A stretch of 10,727 nucleotides of DNA from assembly GCA_003140115.1 (NCBI GenBank), contig PLIQ01000087.1:1-10727 (forward strand). The letters run 5' to 3'. Shown here piece after piece: positions 112-10,727 of the stretch; position 1 is the first letter of the stretch; every line of letters starts with the position of its first letter. Under the pieces are notes generated by a model. The model saw only the letters and a program-made list of their open reading frames with translations, made no database searches and was not told where the DNA came from. The DNA comes from Actinomycetota bacterium (lineage in GTDB: Bacteria; Actinomycetota; Actinomycetes; Streptosporangiales; Streptosporangiaceae). Made by a program: the position numbers and the translations under genes.

Positions 112-393
112 TCATTCGTGCGGTATCTCCTTGCCCCGCGGTATCACCTTGTCCTGCGGCATCCCGTACTCGTCATCTCGGCCGTGCGGGATCTCGAACT
201 CACCCTGCGGCATGTCGTACTTGCCGTGCGGGATCTCGAACTCGCCCTGCGGCATCTCATACTTTCCCCGGGACTGCTCAACCTTGCTGGGGTGCGGCAT
301 GTCATACATCGGGTGCGGCATGTCATACACCGGGTGGGGCATGTCATAGGCGCTGTCGTCACTTACGTCTTTCTTCTCACGCTCGTCGCTCAT
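112..393 (-). CDS. 93-aa Met-Pro heptad-repeat small protein (AfsS-like candidate)
   Basis: The function is not recognised from sequence. After a charged 15-residue N-terminus the protein is almost entirely short repeats: three YDMPHPx units at residues 16-35, a linker (36-43), then four clean seven-residue units at 44-71 alternating KYxMPQG and EFEIPHG, then three degenerate units (YGMPQD, VIPRG, EIPHE). That gives ten [M/I]-P-[H/Q/R] cores. There is no Cys, signal peptide or membrane segment, so it is probably cytosolic and largely disordered. The ATG at 391-393 is chosen because a full Shine-Dalgarno match precedes it by a few bases; the stop is TGA. A good promoter lies about 90 bp upstream. 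It is the last gene on the minus strand, after an AfsR-like regulator and an acidic micro-protein. Streptomyces AfsS is also a tiny protein with Met-Pro repeats, coded downstream of afsR and activated by AfsR. That is the basis for calling this AfsS-like, and it is inference. Other readings are a tandem-core RiPP precursor (no modifying enzyme is seen here) or a Met/His metal binder. Confidence 0.8.
   Translation of the reverse strand: MSDEREKKDVSDDSAYDMPHPVYDMPHPMYDMPHPSKVEQSRGKYEMPQGEFEIPHGKYDMPQGEFEIPHGRDDEYGMPQDKVIPRGKEIPHE
184..267 (-). repeat. Two tandem 42-bp repeats within the repeat-protein gene
   Basis: The copies are 184-225 and 226-267. They differ at a few positions, mostly silent or conservative (for example Asp/Glu in the KYxMPQG unit). 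Each copy encodes two heptads, KYxMPQG plus EFEIPHG. The period is a multiple of 21 bp, so gain or loss of units keeps the frame. Confidence 0.85.
290..352 (-). repeat. Three tandem 21-bp repeats within the repeat-protein gene
   Basis: The units are 290-310, 311-331 and 332-352. They encode the three consecutive YDMPHP heptads near the N-terminus. The first two are nearly identical and the third is more diverged. Confidence 0.85.
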
Positions 394-397
394 GATT

Positions 398-408
398 TCA
401 CCTCCTTT
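398..408 (-). promoter_or_regulatory. Perfect 11-nt Shine-Dalgarno of the repeat protein
   Basis: The minus strand reads AAAGGAGGTGA, complementary over all eleven bases to the usual bacterial 16S rRNA 3' end. The core AGGAGG lies 7 nt before the ATG at 393. None of the other genes here has a site this strong, so high translation of the repeat protein is expected. It is also good evidence that the small ORF is real. Confidence 0.85.
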
Positions 409-1023
409 CCAGGTATCCGAGGTAACTGCCTGTTATCTCACTGACTACCCGTTGTGCCCTGATTGTGCTTCTTTTCCGGGTACTGTATTGACCCACTGTC
501 GTCACGTCAAGGCGTATTGCACATTTAGCTTGGGGTGTTTAACTCGCAGCACGTCGTTTGTGGCGTATAGTAATCTCGGGGGTGAGCTGGGACCAGCTTT
601 CCCTTTTATCCCCGAATAAGTATCGCTGGATGCTAAAGACCATTTGGTCTGACTGGCTATCGATCCGGCGCCGTAGGTGGCCACCCCGGAACTAAGGTCG
701 CGGCGTCGCGCCGTCGGCCGGGCGGCCAAGGCGCGCGCCGGGTCAACGCCACCTTCGGTGTGGCGGGTCCGATTCTGACGGAACCGCGAGCACTTCGCTT
801 AATCCGGCGCCGTCTCCGAGCGTTCGATAACCGTTTCCTCGCAGTTCACCTCTTTCGAGCATGCCAGCCCTAAGATGTCCCTGTTCTCGCGAGTGGCCGC
901 TGTGACTAACGTGAAATAAGCCGGTCAGGCGTGACCCGTAACCCGAAATGACTGCGACCAGATATCAGCAGCTCAACACGATTGCGCGAGCCGCCGCGTA
1001 GCTTAGGACCGACTTCGGCCCGC
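409..1023. other. Gene-poor intergenic region with palindromes
   Basis: I see no convincing gene here. Besides the promoter at 482-510 it holds palindromes at 585-598 (AGCTGG, 2-bp gap, CCAGCT), 637-650 (AGACCA, 2-bp gap, TGGTCT), 666-673 (CGGCGCCG) and 676-685 (GGTGGCCACC). It also holds a 12-bp direct repeat ATCCGGCGCCGT at 663-674 and 802-813. The region lies upstream of the repeat-protein gene and downstream of the acidic micro-protein's terminator, so it is most simply a long regulatory region. A minus-strand ORF of 39 codons (862-743) has only a weak ribosome site and is not called. Confidence 0.5.
482..510 (-). promoter_or_regulatory. Promoter of the repeat-protein gene
   Basis: On the minus strand the -35 element TTGACG (505-510) is separated by exactly 17 bp from the -10 element TACAGT (482-487). 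This fits the principal-sigma consensus, matching 5 of 6 and 4 of 6 bases. Transcription would begin near 475, giving a leader of about 80 nt before the ATG at 393. The -35 overlaps an inverted repeat, TTGAC with GTCAA 13 bp apart, that could bind a regulator. SARP proteins usually bind direct repeats near the -35; I did not find a clear 11-bp-spaced heptamer pair. Confidence 0.6.
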
Positions 1024-1062
1024 AGCGCGTGCGGAGGCTGACGTTCCGCCTCCGCACGCGCT
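1024..1062 (-). terminator. 15-bp perfect hairpin, terminator of the acidic micro-protein gene
   Basis: The arms are 1024-1038 and 1048-1062, perfectly complementary over 15 bp, around a 9-nt loop. The hairpin starts 9 nt after the TAA stop of the 56-aa gene. It has no U tract on the minus strand, as is common in high-GC actinobacteria. Given its symmetry it could act in both directions. Confidence 0.75.
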
Positions 1063-1071
1063 TTGCCCGGG

Positions 1072-1242
1072 TTACGGCTCGGGCATTATGTCAGGCTCGT
1101 CCTCGTCCTCGTCATCGTCGTCATCATCGTCATCGTCGTCGTCTTCGTCGTCCTCGGGTTCGGTCTCGCTCGCGCTCAGCTTGTAGAGCTCGTCGAGGTC
1201 CTCAGTGTCCGCCAGAACCTCGGCGACGGCTGCATTCCCCAT
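1072..1242 (-). CDS. 56-aa highly acidic small protein
   Basis: A short ORF with ATG at 1240-1242 and TAA at 1072-1074. The function is not recognised. Residues 1-28 form an ordinary, partly helical N-terminus (including DLDELYKLSASE). Residues 30-49 are an almost unbroken run of Asp with a few Glu, and the protein ends PDIMPEP. The net charge is extremely negative and it has no membrane segment or signal peptide. A good ribosome site (GAGAGGA) lies about 6 nt upstream. A 15-bp hairpin closes the gene directly after the stop, which supports it as a real, separately ended unit. It lies 102 bp downstream of the AfsR-like gene on the same strand, so it may be read through from it or from its own weak promoter (TACGAT at 1309-1314 with TTGAGT 15 bp upstream). 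The MPEP end echoes the MPHP units of the 93-aa protein. It could be a partner or decoy for a basic protein or DNA-binding surface, a cation binder, or a peptide precursor; none is proven. Confidence 0.7.
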   Translation of the reverse strand: MGNAAVAEVLADTEDLDELYKLSASETEPEDDEDDDDDDDDDDDEDEDEPDIMPEP

Positions 1243-1344: not shown

Positions 1345-4230
1345 TCAGGAATTCCCGGAGGTATCCTGCTCGGCGCGTACCTCTGCCGCCCGAGCGCTGT
1401 CACCGAGGTCGTCGAAGATCGCGGCGGCCCGGGTCCACGATTCGCGCGCTTCGGCGGCCAGGCCATTACGAGCCTGGGCCCGGCCGAGGAGCCTCAGCGT
1501 AGCCGCCTGCTGCTGCCGGTTGCCCGACATCTGGTGGCTGGTCAGCGCCTGACCAAGATGCTCCTGGGCGTCCGCGTCCCGTCCCAGCGCCAGGTAGCAG
1601 CGCCCGAGACAGAACAGGGCGTACCCAGCACCATCCACCGCTTCGATCTCGGCAAATGTGCGCTGGGCCTGCTGCAGGTAGTCGAGGGCCTCCTCGGCGC
1701 GATCGATGTCTACCAGCGCATCGCCGATATTGACCAGGGCAATTCCTTCGCCGTACCGGTGGCCCGTCGCCCGGCTCAGCTCAAGGCCCCGTCGCAGCAG
1801 ATCGATCGCCTCCTGCGACCTCCCCAGTCTGGTGTAGGCGTCGGCGAGGTTGTTCGCCGCGCGCGACTCGCCCCTCCGGTCGCCGACCCCGCGGCTGATG
1901 GCCAGCGCCTGCTCAATGCACCCGATGCCTTCGCTGTCGCCCTTGATCCCCAGGGCCAGGCCCAGGTTGACCAGCACCCAGGCCTCGCCCTGACGGTTCC
2001 CCACGTGGCGGGCGCTGTCCAGCGCCATGCGATGGGTGGTGATGAGGTCGGCCCAGTTGCCCCGGGCGTCGAAGATCTGGAACAGCGGAGGCGGGAGGCG
2101 CCAGGCGACCTCGTGCAGGCCGACGGAGGCGGCCTGGCGAGTGGCGGCCACCAGGTTGACGCGCTCGCTGTCGTACCAGGAGAGGGCGTCGTTGACCCCG
2201 GTGAAGCGCAGCGGCGGCGGATCGTCGCCGACGGGTCCCAGCGGAACGTCGTAACGGCGGGGCTGGACGGCGGTGCCGGCCGCGTCTGACGTGCGCATGT
2301 ACCACCGGAGCAGGCGGCCGACCGCGGCGTCGCGGACTTGTGCGGACAGGTCAGCCACGGCCCGTTCGGAAGAATACACACGAAGCAGGTCATGAAACTT
2401 GTACCGGTCGGAGGAGGTCGACTCCAGCAGGTGCACGTCCACGAGGGTCTCGAGCACATCCTCGGCCTGATACTCAGGGCTGCCGAACAGGGCGGCGGCC
2501 GCTGCGGACGAGATCGACGGCCCCTGCCACAGGCCGAGCATGCGGAAGGCGTCGGCCGGGGCGATCCCGTCCGGCTGGGTGCTGGCGGGCAGGCTGGTGA
2601 AGCTGACCTGGAAGCTGGCCCGGACGGCCATGTCCCCGGCCCGCATCTCGTCCAGCCGGCGGTGCTCGTCACGGAGCCTGCTGGCCATGGCCCCGATGGT
2701 CCAGCCGCTGCGCGTGTTCAGCCGCGCCGCGCAGATCCTGATCGCCAGCGGCAGCCCGGCGCAGGCCAGCAGCAGCTCGGCGGTGGCCTCGGGTTCGGCC
2801 GACGCGCGCTCGTCCCCCACGACCCTGGTGAACAGGGTCAGCGCCTCGTCGTCGTCGAGCACGTTGAGGTCGACCAGCTTGGTGCTGGCCAGGTCGGGCA
2901 TCCGGCTGCGCGTGGTGATCAGCACCGCGCTGGACGCAGTGCCGGGGAGCAGCGGCCTGACCTGGGCGGCGTCGCGCGCGTTGTCGAGCACGATGAGCAT
3001 CCGGTGCCCGTCCAGGACGGTCCGGTACCGGGCCGCCCGCTCATCGTCGTCGGCCGGGATGTCCCGGCCGTCCACGCCGAGGTCACGCAGGAACCTGGCC
3101 AGCACGTCGGCGGGCGGGAGCGGCTGCGGGGTGGCGCCGAGCAGGTCGACGTAGAGCTGTCCGTCCGGGAAGCTGGCGCGGACCCGGTGCGCCGCGTGCA
3201 CGGCCAGGGAGGTCTTGCCCAGCCCGCCGGAGCCGGCCACCAGGGCGATCCGGACCGCGCCGGGGTCGGCGTCCGCGCCGCCCCTGGCCAGCAGCTCAGA
3301 CAGGTGCTTGACCTGATCCTCGCGACCGGTGAAGTCGGCGACGTCGGCCGGCAGCTGGGCCGGGACCGGGACGGGCCGCGGAATCTCGGCCGCCGCGGCG
3401 GGAGCACTCGGCCCGGCGCTGGCCGAGATCGTGCCGGCCGAGATGCTGCCCGGCGCGTCATCCGCGTCCCTGGTGAGCGCGTCGTCCTTGGCCAGCAGTT
3501 CGGCATAGTAGTGGCGCAGCTCGGCACCGGGATCGACGCCGAGTTCCTCGGCCATGACGCCGCGCGCCTGCCCGTACGCCTCGAGCGCCTCGGCGTGGCG
3601 GCCGGCGCCGTCCAGGGCCTGCATGAGCATCAGCCACAGGTTCTCCCTGAGCGCATGGTCGGCCAGCAGCCTGCGCAGTTCCGGGATGACCTGGGCGTGT
3701 CCGCCGCAGGCCAGCTCGGCCTTGATCCGCAGCTCGGCGGCGTCCAGGCGCAGCTCGGCCAGGCGTTCGGCCTCGGTCTCGATCATCGTGGTCGACGGGA
3801 CGTCGGCCAGCGGGCTGCCGTGCCACAGCGCGAGGGCCTCGGCCAGCTGGGCGGCCGCTTGCTCCGGATGGCCGGCCGCGTACGCGCGCCCGCCCTCGCG
3901 GACCAGGGCCTCGAACACCTGGGCGTCGGTATCCCCCGGGGCTAGCCGGAGCAGGTAGCCCGGCGCGCGCGTGACCAGCAGCGTGCCGTTGGTGTCACCC
4001 AGGAGCCTGCGCAGCCTGAGCACGTAGATGCTGATGAGGTTGCCCGCCTTGGCGGGCGGCGCGTCCTGCCCCTGCCACACCTCGTTGATCAGAACGTCGG
4101 CCGGGACGATCTGCCCCGCCTTGATCAGCAGCGCGGCCAGCACCGAACGCCACTTCGGGGCCCCGATCCCCCGCCAGTCCTCCTCCTCGGACCGGATCTC
4201 CAGGGGCCCTAGCAGCCGGAACCTCATCAT
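1345..4230 (-). CDS. AfsR-like SARP regulator (wHTH-BTAD-NB-ARC-TPR)
   Basis: This 961-aa transcription regulator has the full AfsR architecture. Residues 2-95 are an OmpR-type winged helix (MRFRLLGPLEI start, APGYLLRL end). Residues 100-250 are the bacterial transcriptional activation domain, ending in the typical EELGVDPGAEL segment. After an Ala/Pro-rich linker comes an NB-ARC/STAND ATPase with Walker A GSGGLGKT (333-340), Walker B LIVLDN (412-417), a TTRS sensor (439-442), GLPLA (492-496) and FHDLLR (612-617) in the place of the MHD motif. About five tetratricopeptide repeats with a 40-residue period follow from about 745 to 950. Family knowledge: such proteins act as ATP-dependent switches that recruit RNA polymerase at direct repeats near the -35, often for antibiotic or developmental genes. 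Two ATGs (4230, 4227) are possible; an AGG lies 5 nt before the second. The start is separated from prs by a structured 400-bp region, so it probably has its own promoter. It is not called afsR itself because orthology cannot be shown here. Confidence 0.93.
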   Translation of the reverse strand: MMRFRLLGPLEIRSEEEDWRGIGAPKWRSVLAALLIKAGQIVPADVLINEVWQGQDAPPAKAGNLISIYVLRLRRLLGDTNGTLLVTRAPGYLLRLAPGDTDAQVFEALVREGGRAYAAGHPEQAAAQLAEALALWHGSPLADVPSTTMIETEAERLAELRLDAAELRIKAELACGGHAQVIPELRRLLADHALRENLWLMLMQALDGAGRHAEALEAYGQARGVMAEELGVDPGAELRHYYAELLAKDDALTRDADDAPGSISAGTISASAGPSAPAAAAEIPRPVPVPAQLPADVADFTGREDQVKHLSELLARGGADADPGAVRIALVAGSGGLGKTSLAVHAAHRVRASFPDGQLYVDLLGATPQPLPPADVLARFLRDLGVDGRDIPADDDERAARYRTVLDGHRMLIVLDNARDAAQVRPLLPGTASSAVLITTRSRMPDLASTKLVDLNVLDDDEALTLFTRVVGDERASAEPEATAELLLACAGLPLAIRICAARLNTRSGWTIGAMASRLRDEHRRLDEMRAGDMAVRASFQVSFTSLPASTQPDGIAPADAFRMLGLWQGPSISSAAAAALFGSPEYQAEDVLETLVDVHLLESTSSDRYKFHDLLRVYSSERAVADLSAQVRDAAVGRLLRWYMRTSDAAGTAVQPRRYDVPLGPVGDDPPPLRFTGVNDALSWYDSERVNLVAATRQAASVGLHEVAWRLPPPLFQIFDARGNWADLITTHRMALDSARHVGNRQGEAWVLVNLGLALGIKGDSEGIGCIEQALAISRGVGDRRGESRAANNLADAYTRLGRSQEAIDLLRRGLELSRATGHRYGEGIALVNIGDALVDIDRAEEALDYLQQAQRTFAEIEAVDGAGYALFCLGRCYLALGRDADAQEHLGQALTSHQMSGNRQQQAATLRLLGRAQARNGLAAEARESWTRAAAIFDDLGDSARAAEVRAEQDTSGNS

Positions 4231-4438
4231 TACCTGGGATCACTCGCCTCCGGCTAGTCGAACTCGGCCGTGGAAGCTCTCACTTAATCACGGCTCAAGA
4301 CAGACGTAAACCACCTGCCCGAGCATGACCCTATTGCCTCGGCGACGGGGCCCAAGGCGAAGAAGCCGGACGGCCACGGGGGCGCCGTCCGCGGTGCCTA
4401 GAACGCCCGCTCGCCTAGCGGGGTGGGTGGTGCGGGAA

Positions 4439-7311: not shown

Positions 7312-9231
7312 TCAACCGGGCTTCTTTCGCCCCGACTCGGTGATCGCGGTCGGCTGCCCGTTGGTCCCGTTGGCCCCGGGCGGCTGGCCGTTGGGTCCGG
7401 TCGGCGGCCCGTTGGCTCCGGTCGCGCCGGGCGCTTCGGCCGCCGGGTCCGGGACGACCAGCTCGCTCGGCTCCAGGCCGCCATCGCCGGCCACCGCGGC
7501 CAGCTCGGCGCCGAGCGACTCGGCCCGGCCGGCCCGCGGGCGCGGGCCGGTGAGCAGCGACGCGATCGCGGCGATCAGGCTGGCCGCGATCGCGAACGCG
7601 AACGCCACCCCGAGGCCGTCCTTGAACGGCGTGATGATCAGGTGCGGGAAGAACTGGCGCCCGGTGACGTAGGCGGCGTGCCCGGCCGGCAGGTGCCCCA
7701 GCAGCGAGCCGAGCAGCTGGCGCATCGGGTTGTAGCCGAGGAAGGCCGCGAACAGCACGCCGATCGGCGGCAGGTGCGAGATCTGCTGCGCCGCGCTCGC
7801 CGGGATGCCCTGCGCGGTCAGCCCGCCGGACAGGGCACCGGGTAGCTTGCTCGACAGCCCGACGACCATCAGCGAGAAGAAGACCCCGATCGACAGCACG
7901 AACGCGGTGTTCATGAAGGTGGCGATCATGCCGCCCGCGGCGCCGCGCTGGTCCGCGGGCACCGCGTTCATCATCTCGGCCCGGTTCGGCGAGGCGAACA
8001 GGCCGGAGCCGAAGCCGTTGAACGCGATGATCAGGGCGAACACCCAGTAGCTGAAGTCCACCGGCAGGAACAGCAGGAGGAAGAAGGTCAGCGCGGTCAG
8101 CACCGCCCCGCCGGTGGTGAACGCCCGGGCGCCGAACCGGTCGGAGAGGACGCCGGACAGCGGCGCGGAGAGCAGGAAGCCGATGGTCAGCGGGACCAGG
8201 TAGATGCCCGCCCACAGCGGGGTCTGGCTGAAGCTGTATCCGTGCAGCGGCAGCCAGATGCCCTGCAGCCAGATGATCAGCATGAACTGCATGCCGCCGC
8301 GGCTCAGGGCCAGCATCAAGTTGGCCAGGTTGCCCAGGGCGAAGGCCCGGATCTTGAACAGCGACAGCCGGAACAGCGGCTCGGCCACCTTCGTTTCCAC
8401 GACGCCGAACACCACCAGCGCCGCTAGCCCGCCGAACATCGCGGACAGCACCCACGGGTTGGTCCAGCCCATGGGGTGCCCGCCGTAGGGCAGCAGGCCG
8501 TAGGTGATGCCGACCAGGATGGCGACCAGCCCGGCCGCGAACAAGATGTTGCCCCACCAGTCCATCCGCGCCGGGCGGCGGGCCCCGATGTCCTTCAGCA
8601 TGAAGTACGCCCACACAGTGCCGAACAACCCGATCGGCGCCGAGACCAGGAACACCAGATGCCAGTTGATCGGGCCGAGCAGCCCGCCGAGCAGCAGCCC
8701 GAGGAACGAGCCGGCGATGGCCGCGATCGAGTTGATGCCCAGCGCGGTGCCACGCTGGTTGGACGGGAACGCGTCGGTGAGGATCGCGGTGGCGTTGGCG
8801 AACAGGAACGCGCCGCCGATGCCCTGGACGAGCCGCCACCCGATCAGCCACAGCGCCCCGGCGCTGCCGTGCATCCAGGTAACGGTCAGCAGCAGGGAAC
8901 CGAAGGTGAAGATCGCGAACCCGAGGTTGTACATCCGGACCCGGCCGAACATGTCGCCCAGCCGCCCGAACGACACCACCAGCACGGCCGACACCACCAG
9001 GAAGCCCATGAACATCCACAGCAGGTAGCTGGTGTTGTCCGGGCTCAGCGGGTTGAGCCCGATGCCGCGGAAGATGTCCGGGAGCGAGATCAGCACGATG
9101 GACTGGTTGATGGTGGCCATCAGCACGCCCAGCGTGGTGTTCGACAGTGCGATCCACTTGTAGTGCGGCCCGACCTCCGCGCCGCGACCCTGGCCCGCGG
9201 GCATGCCAAGCACGCTGGAGTTAGCGGTCAT
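7312..9231 (-). CDS. DHA2-family (EmrB/QacA-like) MFS exporter, 14 TM
   Basis: This 639-aa inner-membrane proton-driven exporter belongs to the drug:H+ antiporter-2 branch; the substrate cannot be told. A short cytosolic N-terminus precedes TM1. The TM1 motif lies near residues 36-51 (LMATINQSIVLISLP). Loop 2-3 motif A GRLGDMFGRVRMYNLG is at 89-104. Motif B begins at RLVQG (133-137). The TM5 antiporter motif C is at about 171-190, ending GGLLGPINW. About 14 hydrophobic segments run to about residue 555. In TM1 the usual DHA2 motif has Asp where this protein has Asn. After the last TM comes a hydrophilic tail of about 80 residues whose end is rich in Gly, Asn and Pro (GPNGQPPGANGTNG). The ATG at 9229-9231 is used although its ribosome site is weak; an internal Met at residue 10 is an alternative. 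It is divergent from the HTH gene at 9381, with a strong -10 in between. Confidence 0.93.
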   Translation of the reverse strand: MTANSSVLGMPAGQGRGAEVGPHYKWIALSNTTLGVLMATINQSIVLISLPDIFRGIGLNPLSPDNTSYLLWMFMGFLVVSAVLVVSFGRLGDMFGRVRMYNLGFAIFTFGSLLLTVTWMHGSAGALWLIGWRLVQGIGGAFLFANATAILTDAFPSNQRGTALGINSIAAIAGSFLGLLLGGLLGPINWHLVFLVSAPIGLFGTVWAYFMLKDIGARRPARMDWWGNILFAAGLVAILVGITYGLLPYGGHPMGWTNPWVLSAMFGGLAALVVFGVVETKVAEPLFRLSLFKIRAFALGNLANLMLALSRGGMQFMLIIWLQGIWLPLHGYSFSQTPLWAGIYLVPLTIGFLLSAPLSGVLSDRFGARAFTTGGAVLTALTFFLLLFLPVDFSYWVFALIIAFNGFGSGLFASPNRAEMMNAVPADQRGAAGGMIATFMNTAFVLSIGVFFSLMVVGLSSKLPGALSGGLTAQGIPASAAQQISHLPPIGVLFAAFLGYNPMRQLLGSLLGHLPAGHAAYVTGRQFFPHLIITPFKDGLGVAFAFAIAASLIAAIASLLTGPRPRAGRAESLGAELAAVAGDGGLEPSELVVPDPAAEAPGATGANGPPTGPNGQPPGANGTNGQPTAITESGRKKPG

Positions 9232-9380: not shown

Positions 9381-10197
9381 ATGCGTACTCCACAGGAACT
9401 TGAGCACCTGCGGGATCAGGCCATCCTGCTGCGCCGACAGGGTAAATCCCTGCGCCAGATCAAGGAGATCTTGGGTCCGATGAGTAATGCGACGCTCCAC
9501 GCCGCCCTGAAGGGCGAGCCCCCACCCGAGTGGACCCGGCGTCCACAGGCAAAGGACGAGCTGCGGGCTCGCGCTCGTGAGCTACGCGGCCAGGGCTCGA
9601 GCTACGCGGAGATCGCCGCAGCCCTCGGCGTGGCCAAGGGCTCGGTTTCCCTCTGGGTACGTGACCTGCCCATACCGGCGAGGCTCAGCTACACCGAATG
9701 CCGGGAGCGGTCGGCCGCGGGCGCGCGCCGCTACTGGGCCACCGAGCGGCCGGCCCGCCAGGCCCGGCGGGCCGTCGTCCGTGCGGCAGCCGTCGCGCAG
9801 ATCGGCGCGCTGACCGACCGCGAGATCCTCATCGCGGGAGCCATCGCCTACTGGTGTGAAGGCGCGAAGACCAAGCCGCACCGACGCGACGACCGGGTGA
9901 GTTTCATCAACGGCGACCCGGACCTAATCCGGTTCTTCCTGCGCTTCCTCGACGCGACCGGCACGGCGCGGACGGATTTGAGGTTTCGGATCTACAGCCA
10001 CGAGAGCGCGGACGTGGCAACAGCTCAGCGGTTCTGGCTCGAGATCAGACCTCTATCGCAAGATCGAAGGATGGGCGGCGTCGAGCATGGCGGCGCTCCG
10101 CGCCGCGAACCCGGAACCGGCAGCCAAGCCGTCGCCAGGCGAGGCATCGGCCGATACCGCCACGGGATCGCGGCCGGTATCGTGGGAACCACGCTGA
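9381..10197 (+). pseudogene. Double-HTH, LAGLIDADG-like protein gene broken by a frame-shifting deletion
   Basis: The intact part (residues 1-221) has two helix-turn-helix segments (about 8-45 and 58-95, the second with YAEIAAALGVAKGSVSLWVR). A LAGLIDADG-like half follows: IAGAIAYWCEGAK (151-163) and VSFINGDPDLIRFFLRFLDATG (173-194). From memory, this is a common actinobacterial protein family of uncertain role. After RFWLEI (to 10046) the frame reads Arg/Gly-rich nonsense and stops at 10242-10244, inside the tRNA-Gln gene. Shifted by one base, 10048-10197 reads DLYRKIEGWA and on to a TGA 32 bp before the tRNA. LYxKIEGW is the kind of C-terminus I recall for this family, normally preceded by about 40 residues that are absent here. 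A deletion not divisible by three between RFW and DLY explains both facts. If the frame is in fact used, the product would be a 287-aa protein with an altered tail. The ATG at 9381 has no ribosome site and may be leaderless. Confidence 0.65.
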
Positions 10198-10229
10198 CGG
10201 TGATGTCCCATAACAGGCTGTACCAACAA

Positions 10230-10302
10230 TCCGGCGTAGAGTAATTGGCAGCTCACCAGCCTTTGAAGCTGGCCCGTCCTGGTTCGAGTCCAGGCGCCGG
10301 AA
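10230..10302 (+). tRNA. tRNA-Gln (anticodon UUG)
   Basis: A complete 73-nt cloverleaf can be folded by eye. The acceptor arms TCCGGCG and CGCCGGA pair over 7 bp. The D arm is GAGT with GCTC (one T-G pair). The anticodon arm CCAGC/GCTGG encloses the loop CTTTGAA, giving anticodon TTG, which reads CAA (and CAG by wobble). The variable loop is 5 nt, and the T arm CCTGG/CCAGG holds TTCGAGT. The discriminator is A and CCA is not encoded. The first pair is U1-A72, typical of tRNA-Gln; in bacteria lacking GlnRS it marks the tRNA for transamidation by GatCAB. No copy of its 3' end was seen elsewhere in the window. Confidence 0.93.
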
Positions 10303-10332
10303 CTTAATTCGATTTGATGTTTCTGTCAGGCA

Positions 10333-10646: not shown

Positions 10647-10727
10647 ATGACCACTTCTCCCGACACCGTTCGCCCGGCCGACACCGTCCACCAGGCCGAC
10701 GCCGCTTCGGCGGCGCAGCCTGCCGCG
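10647..10727 (+). CDS. 5' end of an unidentified gene (27 codons, cut by window end)
   Basis: ATG at 10647 follows GAGGAG by 4 nt. All 27 codons to the window edge are open. The visible N-terminus is hydrophilic, rich in Ala, Thr, Asp and Pro, with two similar pieces (RPADTV, HQAD), so it is probably a disordered leader ahead of the real domain. It has no signal-peptide character. The product cannot be identified. The palindromic operator upstream suggests a gene under a TetR-type repressor. Genes of fatty-acid metabolism, such as acyl-CoA desaturases, often have both features in actinobacteria, but that is a guess. Confidence 0.7.
   Translation, partial: MTTSPDTVRPADTVHQADAASAAQPAA

Follow-up and report, generated by a model that had tools for sequence, protein, structure and literature searches.

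Pleiotropic activation of secondary metabolism is characteristic of AfsS, and the afs box is found in the afsS promoter as 11-bp direct repeats of the GTTYATCG type. AfsS has been described as a protein of about 63 aa in which a 12-residue segment occurs three times, and is called sigma-like for residues that it has in common with sigma domain 3 (PMC2267785). One account has it apparently interacting with RNA polymerase (PMC4415409), another places its binding upstream of pathway regulators (PMC6988585), and a third has it acting "in an as yet unknown way" (PMC10972967). In case of AfsR, NOD and TPR are reported to inhibit the SARP domain and ATP to relieve this inhibition, and the same account leaves open whether an inducer binds to the TPR sensor (PMC10936776). 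The mechanism of AfsS, and the binding of any inducer by the AfsR TPR, are given as open questions in several accounts (PMC10972967, PMC4415409, PMC8914203, PMC10936776). According to a genome study, no AfsS-like protein could be found in S. erythraea (PMC3733707). Among papers listed in literature searches, with few subscription journals among them, none describes hypervariable SARP companions outside Streptomyces in its title or abstract opening. A further described arrangement, the FxSxx-COOH system, comprises a small variable protein whose C-terminal peptide is conserved, together with a peptidase partner (PMC7159879).

The window, i.e., the whole analysed stretch of 10,727 nucleotides, carries along its minus strand the gene order MFS-glmU-prs-large SARP-acidic 56-aa gene-hairpin-repeat gene. 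Like AfsS, the repeat protein is small, acidic and repeat-bearing and is encoded behind a BTAD/NB-ARC/TPR regulator. Met-Pro also occurs in the AfsS repeats of two of five Streptomycetaceae genomes (TTLDSHMPAPP, TTLNNSMPSEP); AfsS units differ among these five, the others being GTENIHAT, TLDNHASG and PDNQFQD. A single BLASTP comparison of the repeat protein with one AfsS (L109) yielded E 0.016. However, AfsS has three repeats of about 12 residues and lies directly behind AfsR, whereas the repeat protein has 93 aa with ten units mostly of 7 residues and is separated from the window SARP by the acidic gene. The afs box is visible before L108, L109, L110 and L111, but was not found before the repeat gene. 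Moreover, the window SARP scores 655 bits against the NF053617 cut-off of 1430 for AfsR, and it stands outside the AfsR clade in the NOD/arm tree. Assignment as a formal AfsS was rejected on four counts: the AfsR cut-off, the clade, the afs box and the form of the repeats. From the AfsS-type regulator proposed in the initial annotation, gene order, size, acidity, likely disorder and repeats were borne out, while formal membership was not. The best reading is that the repeat protein would work like AfsS, by analogy of place and build.

The repeat gene and its product

The 93-aa open reading frame of the repeat ("poly-tail") gene is real; it covers 112..393 of the minus strand, from an ATG at 393 to its stop at 112. 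The ten [M/I]-P-[H/Q/R] units already seen in the initial annotation were confirmed, with units defined by the pattern [MI]P[HQR]. From the N- to the C-terminus, the protein is composed of (i) MSDEREKKDVSDDSA, (ii) three YDMPHP units with a 7-residue period (block 1, 289..348, minus strand), (iii) a spacer, (iv) four units with a 7-residue period (block 2, KYEMPQG-EFEIPHG-KYDMPQG-EFEIPHG, 181..264, minus strand), in which K-Y-[DE]-MPQG alternates with EFEIPHG, and (v) three looser units, EYGMPQD, KVIPRG and KEIPHE (115..171, minus strand, from the unit pattern), so that the protein ends in IPHE. The two blocks were delimited by Tandem Repeats Finder and the unit pattern; the tandem 21-bp and 42-bp DNA units noted initially were recovered by the same program as arrays at 290-348 and 181-264. 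The strict seven-residue period attributed to the protein applies within units 1-3 and 4-7 only, the remaining spacings being 15, 10, 6 and 6. Within the units, the Met position is also occupied by Ile and the His position by Gln or Arg, and the last two units lack the aromatic residue. The protein is Cys-free with a net charge of -11, of low complexity, acidic and Pro-rich. Its AlphaFold prediction without alignment reached a pLDDT of 54, as for a disordered protein or one that AlphaFold cannot model.

The start of the repeat gene is preceded by a Shine-Dalgarno sequence (GAAAGGAGGTGA, 398..409, minus strand) with a 12-nt match to the complement of the 16S tail, one nucleotide longer than the perfect 11-nt match originally claimed. 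The remaining 455 of the 456 possible starts examined have matches of at most 7 nt, scored against a general 16S tail sequence that may not be the host's own. A sigma-70-like promoter TTGACG-17-TACAGT at 482..510 (minus strand), likewise expected from the initial annotation, agrees with 9 of 12 consensus positions, being a consensus match only. This one promoter-like site before the gene (510-482) compares with 0.3 expected from shuffling of 1-1400. SARP-type 11-bp direct repeats upstream of the repeat gene do not exceed chance, and no GTTCA-type site is present in the 200 nt upstream. Since direct repeats beyond chance are missing and a possible terminator intervenes, SARP control of the repeat gene is a candidate only.

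Searches for relatives of the repeat protein returned little. Among 5.8 billion proteins (four candidates), the single match was its own cluster, a 62-aa version that starts at an internal Met and occurs in two contigs. GTDB genome contigs and viral contigs contained no relative, the best PDB match (E 0.33) was no relative either, and, in line with the initial view that no described family is involved, neither Pfam nor NCBIfam has a family matching it. The two nearest genomes also lack a relative of the repeat gene (best E 0.37 in G001, none at E 0.5 in G014). Homologues in related genomes, to which the initial annotation had looked as a check, are confined to the own cluster as far as proteins, GTDB contigs, G001 and G014 are concerned. 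In 200 genomes of the source organism's family, weak matches were obtained in 90 (best E 0.002), and translation of 22 such loci (L081-L102) revealed a small gene with the tandem motif in none.

The acidic companion and its tail motif

The large SARP (961 aa, 1345..4230, minus strand) possesses Trans_reg_C, BTAD, NB-ARC and TPR domains according to domain models, with the TPR at residues 741-961. Upstream of its gene, TT-A-G repeats of 11-bp period at 4281..4312 (minus strand), recognized by eye, may represent a SARP autoregulatory box; similar repeats precede the SARP gene, also by eye, in L001, L125-L127, L130 and L132. Behind the SARP gene follows the acidic companion gene (1072..1242, minus strand; 56 aa, ending in PDIMPEP), assigned by protein matches and tail count. 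On its 3' side, a 15-bp hairpin (1024..1062, minus strand; folding z = -3.5) forms a possible terminator. The terminator scan does not list this hairpin because it is without a T-run, and lists a weak site at 936-923 instead. The repeat gene starts 951 bp behind the SARP stop with the acidic gene in between, and the window ends 111 bp beyond it.

In the closest named locus (L001, a soil MAG labelled Nocardiopsis sp.; identities of 76 % for GlmU, 90 % for Prs, 69 % for the SARP and 82 % for MFS), the order is MFS-glmU-prs-SARP-acidic gene-rplY-pth and the repeat gene is absent. The corresponding order in G014 (L138) is MFS-glmU-prs-SARP-TIPGD repeat gene-4.4 kb-rplY-pth. Since rplY lies outside the window, we infer rather than observe the position of the repeat gene between SARP and rplY. 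The 4.4-kb stretch of L138 from the TIPGD gene to rplY (10998-15428) contains ATPase-like, GGDEF-like and MFS-like ORFs, as judged by eye, and is absent from L001.

The remaining part of the window shows a few further features. The C-terminal end of the MFS transporter (7347-7452) is a Pro-Asn-Gly / Pro-Thr-Gly-like tandem repeat with 51-bp and 21-bp periods. An HTH-domain ORF (9381-10303) overlaps with its 3' end a tRNA-Gln gene on the same strand (10230-10303) and has relatives in L001 and in Streptomyces loci. At 10647-10727, a likely gene start, recognized by eye, is cut by the window end; an 18-bp tandem repeat (10660-10709) falls within its first codons.

A protein search with the acidic companion returned 287 matches at E 0.1, self included, most of them annotated as "hypothetical protein"; its cluster at 90 % identity represents 61 contigs. 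The matches listed have a common build, i.e., an N-terminal MGNAAVAE...LDELYKLDASE segment, then a poly-acidic linker that varies, and P-x-x-[MIV]-P at the C-terminus. Among the 120 matches listed (of the 287, self included), 114 end in [MIV]P followed by two more residues, and most of the six others are cut or extended forms. Tails in this set are MPDP (41), MPEP (19), MPQP (10), MPHE (9), MPHP (8), MPQG (7) and others, and the tail Pro is invariant in an alignment of 32 acidic companions chosen from these 120. The family profile matched only one of 279 genomes of the source organism's family, and with this near absence, the acidic type is known mainly from public contigs.

The repeat protein has in common with the acidic companion family the locus, the strand, the tail tetramers MPHP, MPQG and IPHG, and the kind of C-terminus (IPHE versus MPHE), but is without the MGN...LDELY N-terminal segment and the poly-acidic linker; the companions carry one tail motif, the repeat protein ten. 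Its unit tetramers are MPHP (3), MPQG (2), IPHG (2), MPQD, IPRG and the C-terminal IPHE. In seven of the ten units, the tetramer (MPHP, MPQG or IPHG) equals a companion tail observed among the matches listed, and two pentamers, DMPHP and EMPQG, occur unchanged as tails of listed acidic companions. The protein's own C-terminus, IPHE, fits [MIV]P plus two residues. Since unit tetramers and pentamers equal observed tails, the repeat protein can be read as the companion tail arrayed in tandem. Judged from sequence, its neighbourhood thus appears to account for it, as the tail motif of the companion repeated ten times.

Companions behind related SARPs

A search for the large SARP (E 1e-180) in 297 genomes from the family yielded 19 places in 17 genomes. 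Phylogenetic analysis of NOD plus arm groups 16 of these SARPs with that of the window (support 92/93, several inner forks being weak), where the window SARP clusters with L103 (from L001) and L124 (from G014) at a support of 100/100. As companion counted any same-strand ORF that is short, acidic and free of Cys and lies at most 450 bp behind the stop of a large SARP, a definition written after the loci had been viewed. Such a companion is present behind 15 of the 16 clade SARPs, those of L103 and L120-L133, starting 39-402 bp past the stop, and the contig of the 16th ends after 259 bp. In the window, the same definition picks the acidic gene and not the repeat gene, which is located beyond 450 bp (at 951 bp). 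In 11 of the 16 loci, rplY was seen further downstream.

Ten of the 15 companions are tandem-repeat proteins with the units QPETIISED, TIPGD, TVVPE, PETSVV, EGIIVKE, PETAM, KPTGLEDPDV, PETIAA, PETET (cut by the contig end) and AMTHDAEPA; the five without repeats are those of L103, L120, L122, L123 and L131. In one genus, the SARP is present in seven of eight genomes, with units PETAM, PETIAA, PETIISEDQ, EGIIVKE, PETSVV, PETET and PETVV. A whole unit is never common to two of these, though PET is common to most. The 20 companions measured and the two window proteins are all acidic (net charge -6 to -29) and Cys-free, that of L132 being cut by the contig end. The SARPs of L120-L133 share 50-61 % identity with the window SARP, although the companion units differ in every genome. 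The SARP-companion locus may serve as a marker of rapid unit turnover.

Applied to 14 other large SARPs, one of them with a flank of 158 bp only, the definition found no companion, whereas AfsS was found in five of five Streptomycetaceae AfsR loci. Four of the 14 companion-free SARPs (L113-L115, L118) belong to the AfsR side of the tree; thus not every AfsR relative has a companion. In this clade, the place of the companion is conserved, while its sequence is hypervariable.

Possible origin and role of the repeat protein

The 3' 216 nt of the repeat gene (gene plus flank) align with the companion region of L001 at a score of 25, where 120 other windows of L001 gave no score above 16, and none of 300 shuffles of the whole repeat gene reaches 25 against this region. 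GAC-rich codons contribute part of this score. The similarity is unsteady in blastn, with E 4e-6 in one run, no listing in a rerun at E 0.01, and E 1.1 with trimmed ends. Of 300 shuffles, 257 did as well as the stretch downstream of the stop when this was taken alone, and 2 did as well as the last ten codons together with that stretch. The repeat gene probably arose by duplication of the companion.

That the frame of the repeat gene is open is by itself little proof, since other frames are open as well (plus-strand ORFs of 108 and 91 aa) and since an intergenic 21-bp minisatellite of another genome (L098, 1501-1626) has several open frames, one of them reading as PYEIAPG repeats, which calls for caution before repeat ORFs are called genes. 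Together with the lack of relatives, these observations would suit a chance ORF over a GC-rich 21-bp minisatellite, i.e., a neutral array whose protein, if made, is functionless. Codon differences among units 1-7 number 24/36/70 at positions 1/2/3; their being commonest at third positions argues against chance, whereas the differing codon pairs, 15 synonymous and 73 non-synonymous (D/E, M/I and H/Q exchanges included), are in its favour and let the position pattern support coding only modestly. Considering also the Shine-Dalgarno match unequalled by the other 455 starts, and units that equal the conserved tail of the neighbouring acidic companion, a neutral array is unlikely. The latter agreement equally opposes a generic disordered acidic repeat protein, active in stress, solubility or metal buffering, that adjoins the SARP by chance. 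Low complexity, acidity, Pro content and the pLDDT of 54 would be in keeping with such a protein. However, as Met gives way to Ile, and His to Gln or Arg, from unit to unit, a metal ligand is not kept; the Met/His metal-binding function considered initially finds no support, and a generic protein of this kind is improbable.

The conserved C-terminal tail on a variable protein, and its ten tandem copies, recall precursors of processed or modified peptides as in FxSxx-COOH and cyclophane systems, of which the repeat protein would be a many-core version. In accordance, the TPR models of both FxSxx-COOH and HaaA-type systems (FxSxx and HaaT), whose small proteins have NB-ARC-TPR partners, match the window SARP, but with scores far under the cut-offs (328 of 1125 and 74 of 300 bits), and the tail is a different one. 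The repeat protein has no hydrophobic leader (maximum 15-residue hydropathy -0.71) and no regular basic cleavage sites. An MFS exporter is present, but a radical-SAM enzyme, peptidase or other processing enzyme is absent among the window proteins scanned (SARP, Prs, GlmU by Pfam only, MFS and the HTH protein), nor was a maturation enzyme noticed in L001 and L138, which were read without systematic annotation; enzymes encoded elsewhere could still act in trans. The precursor cut into many peptides, as envisaged in the initial annotation, thus lacks three of its expected features, and a multi-core precursor seems quite improbable.

Slightly favoured overall is a lineage-specific "poly-tail" paralogue of the hypervariable, AfsS-like SARP companion, formed by tail amplification and serving as a motif protein in the SARP circuit. 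The ancestral state would be a small, acidic, disordered companion directly downstream of the large SARPs of this clade. Tandem amplification of its C-terminal tail motif x-x-[MIV]-P-[DEHQN]-[PGE] would have produced the repeat protein, an AfsS-like small motif protein beside a STAND-type SARP and probably part of its circuit. The hydrophobic-Pro tail may act as a short docking motif, present once in the acidic companion and ten times in the repeat protein. The SARP's own TPR sensor would be the first candidate for its partner and RNA polymerase the second, and ten copies could act multivalently, as a ligand or a sponge, and in this way set the regulator's output. Counting against this poly-tail paralogue, the N-terminus of the repeat protein is unlike the MGN... 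start of the acidic companions. If AfsS-like companions do diverge this fast and are visible by gene order only, they may be much more frequent than sequence searches suggest. The series of companions behind orthologous SARPs (one tail, ten tails, other units) offers a direct route to the motif partner.

One may speculate further, if with considerable doubt, that STAND-type SARPs carry dedicated hypervariable companions whose tandem units are ligands of the TPR sensor and co-evolve with it, the window version being multivalent with ten tails. On this view, AfsS would belong to a widespread class of ligands and not be a Streptomyces-only "sigma-like" factor. Charge complementarity between TPR and companion was not seen, the TPR being slightly acidic (net -6) and not basic. 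The TPR is the least conserved domain in all 14 clade rows with all domains, and is also among the least conserved in comparison with AfsR; its fast evolution is accordingly not special to this clade. Beyond NOD/arm similarity, companion type and TPR similarity showed a residual difference of 0.038 (P 0.016, 2000 label shuffles), which is a hint only, since types were assigned by eye and relatedness was only partly removed. The window SARP is equally similar to L103 and L124 in NOD/arm (identity 0.75), whereas its TPR is closer to that of L103 (0.62) than to that of L124 (0.45).
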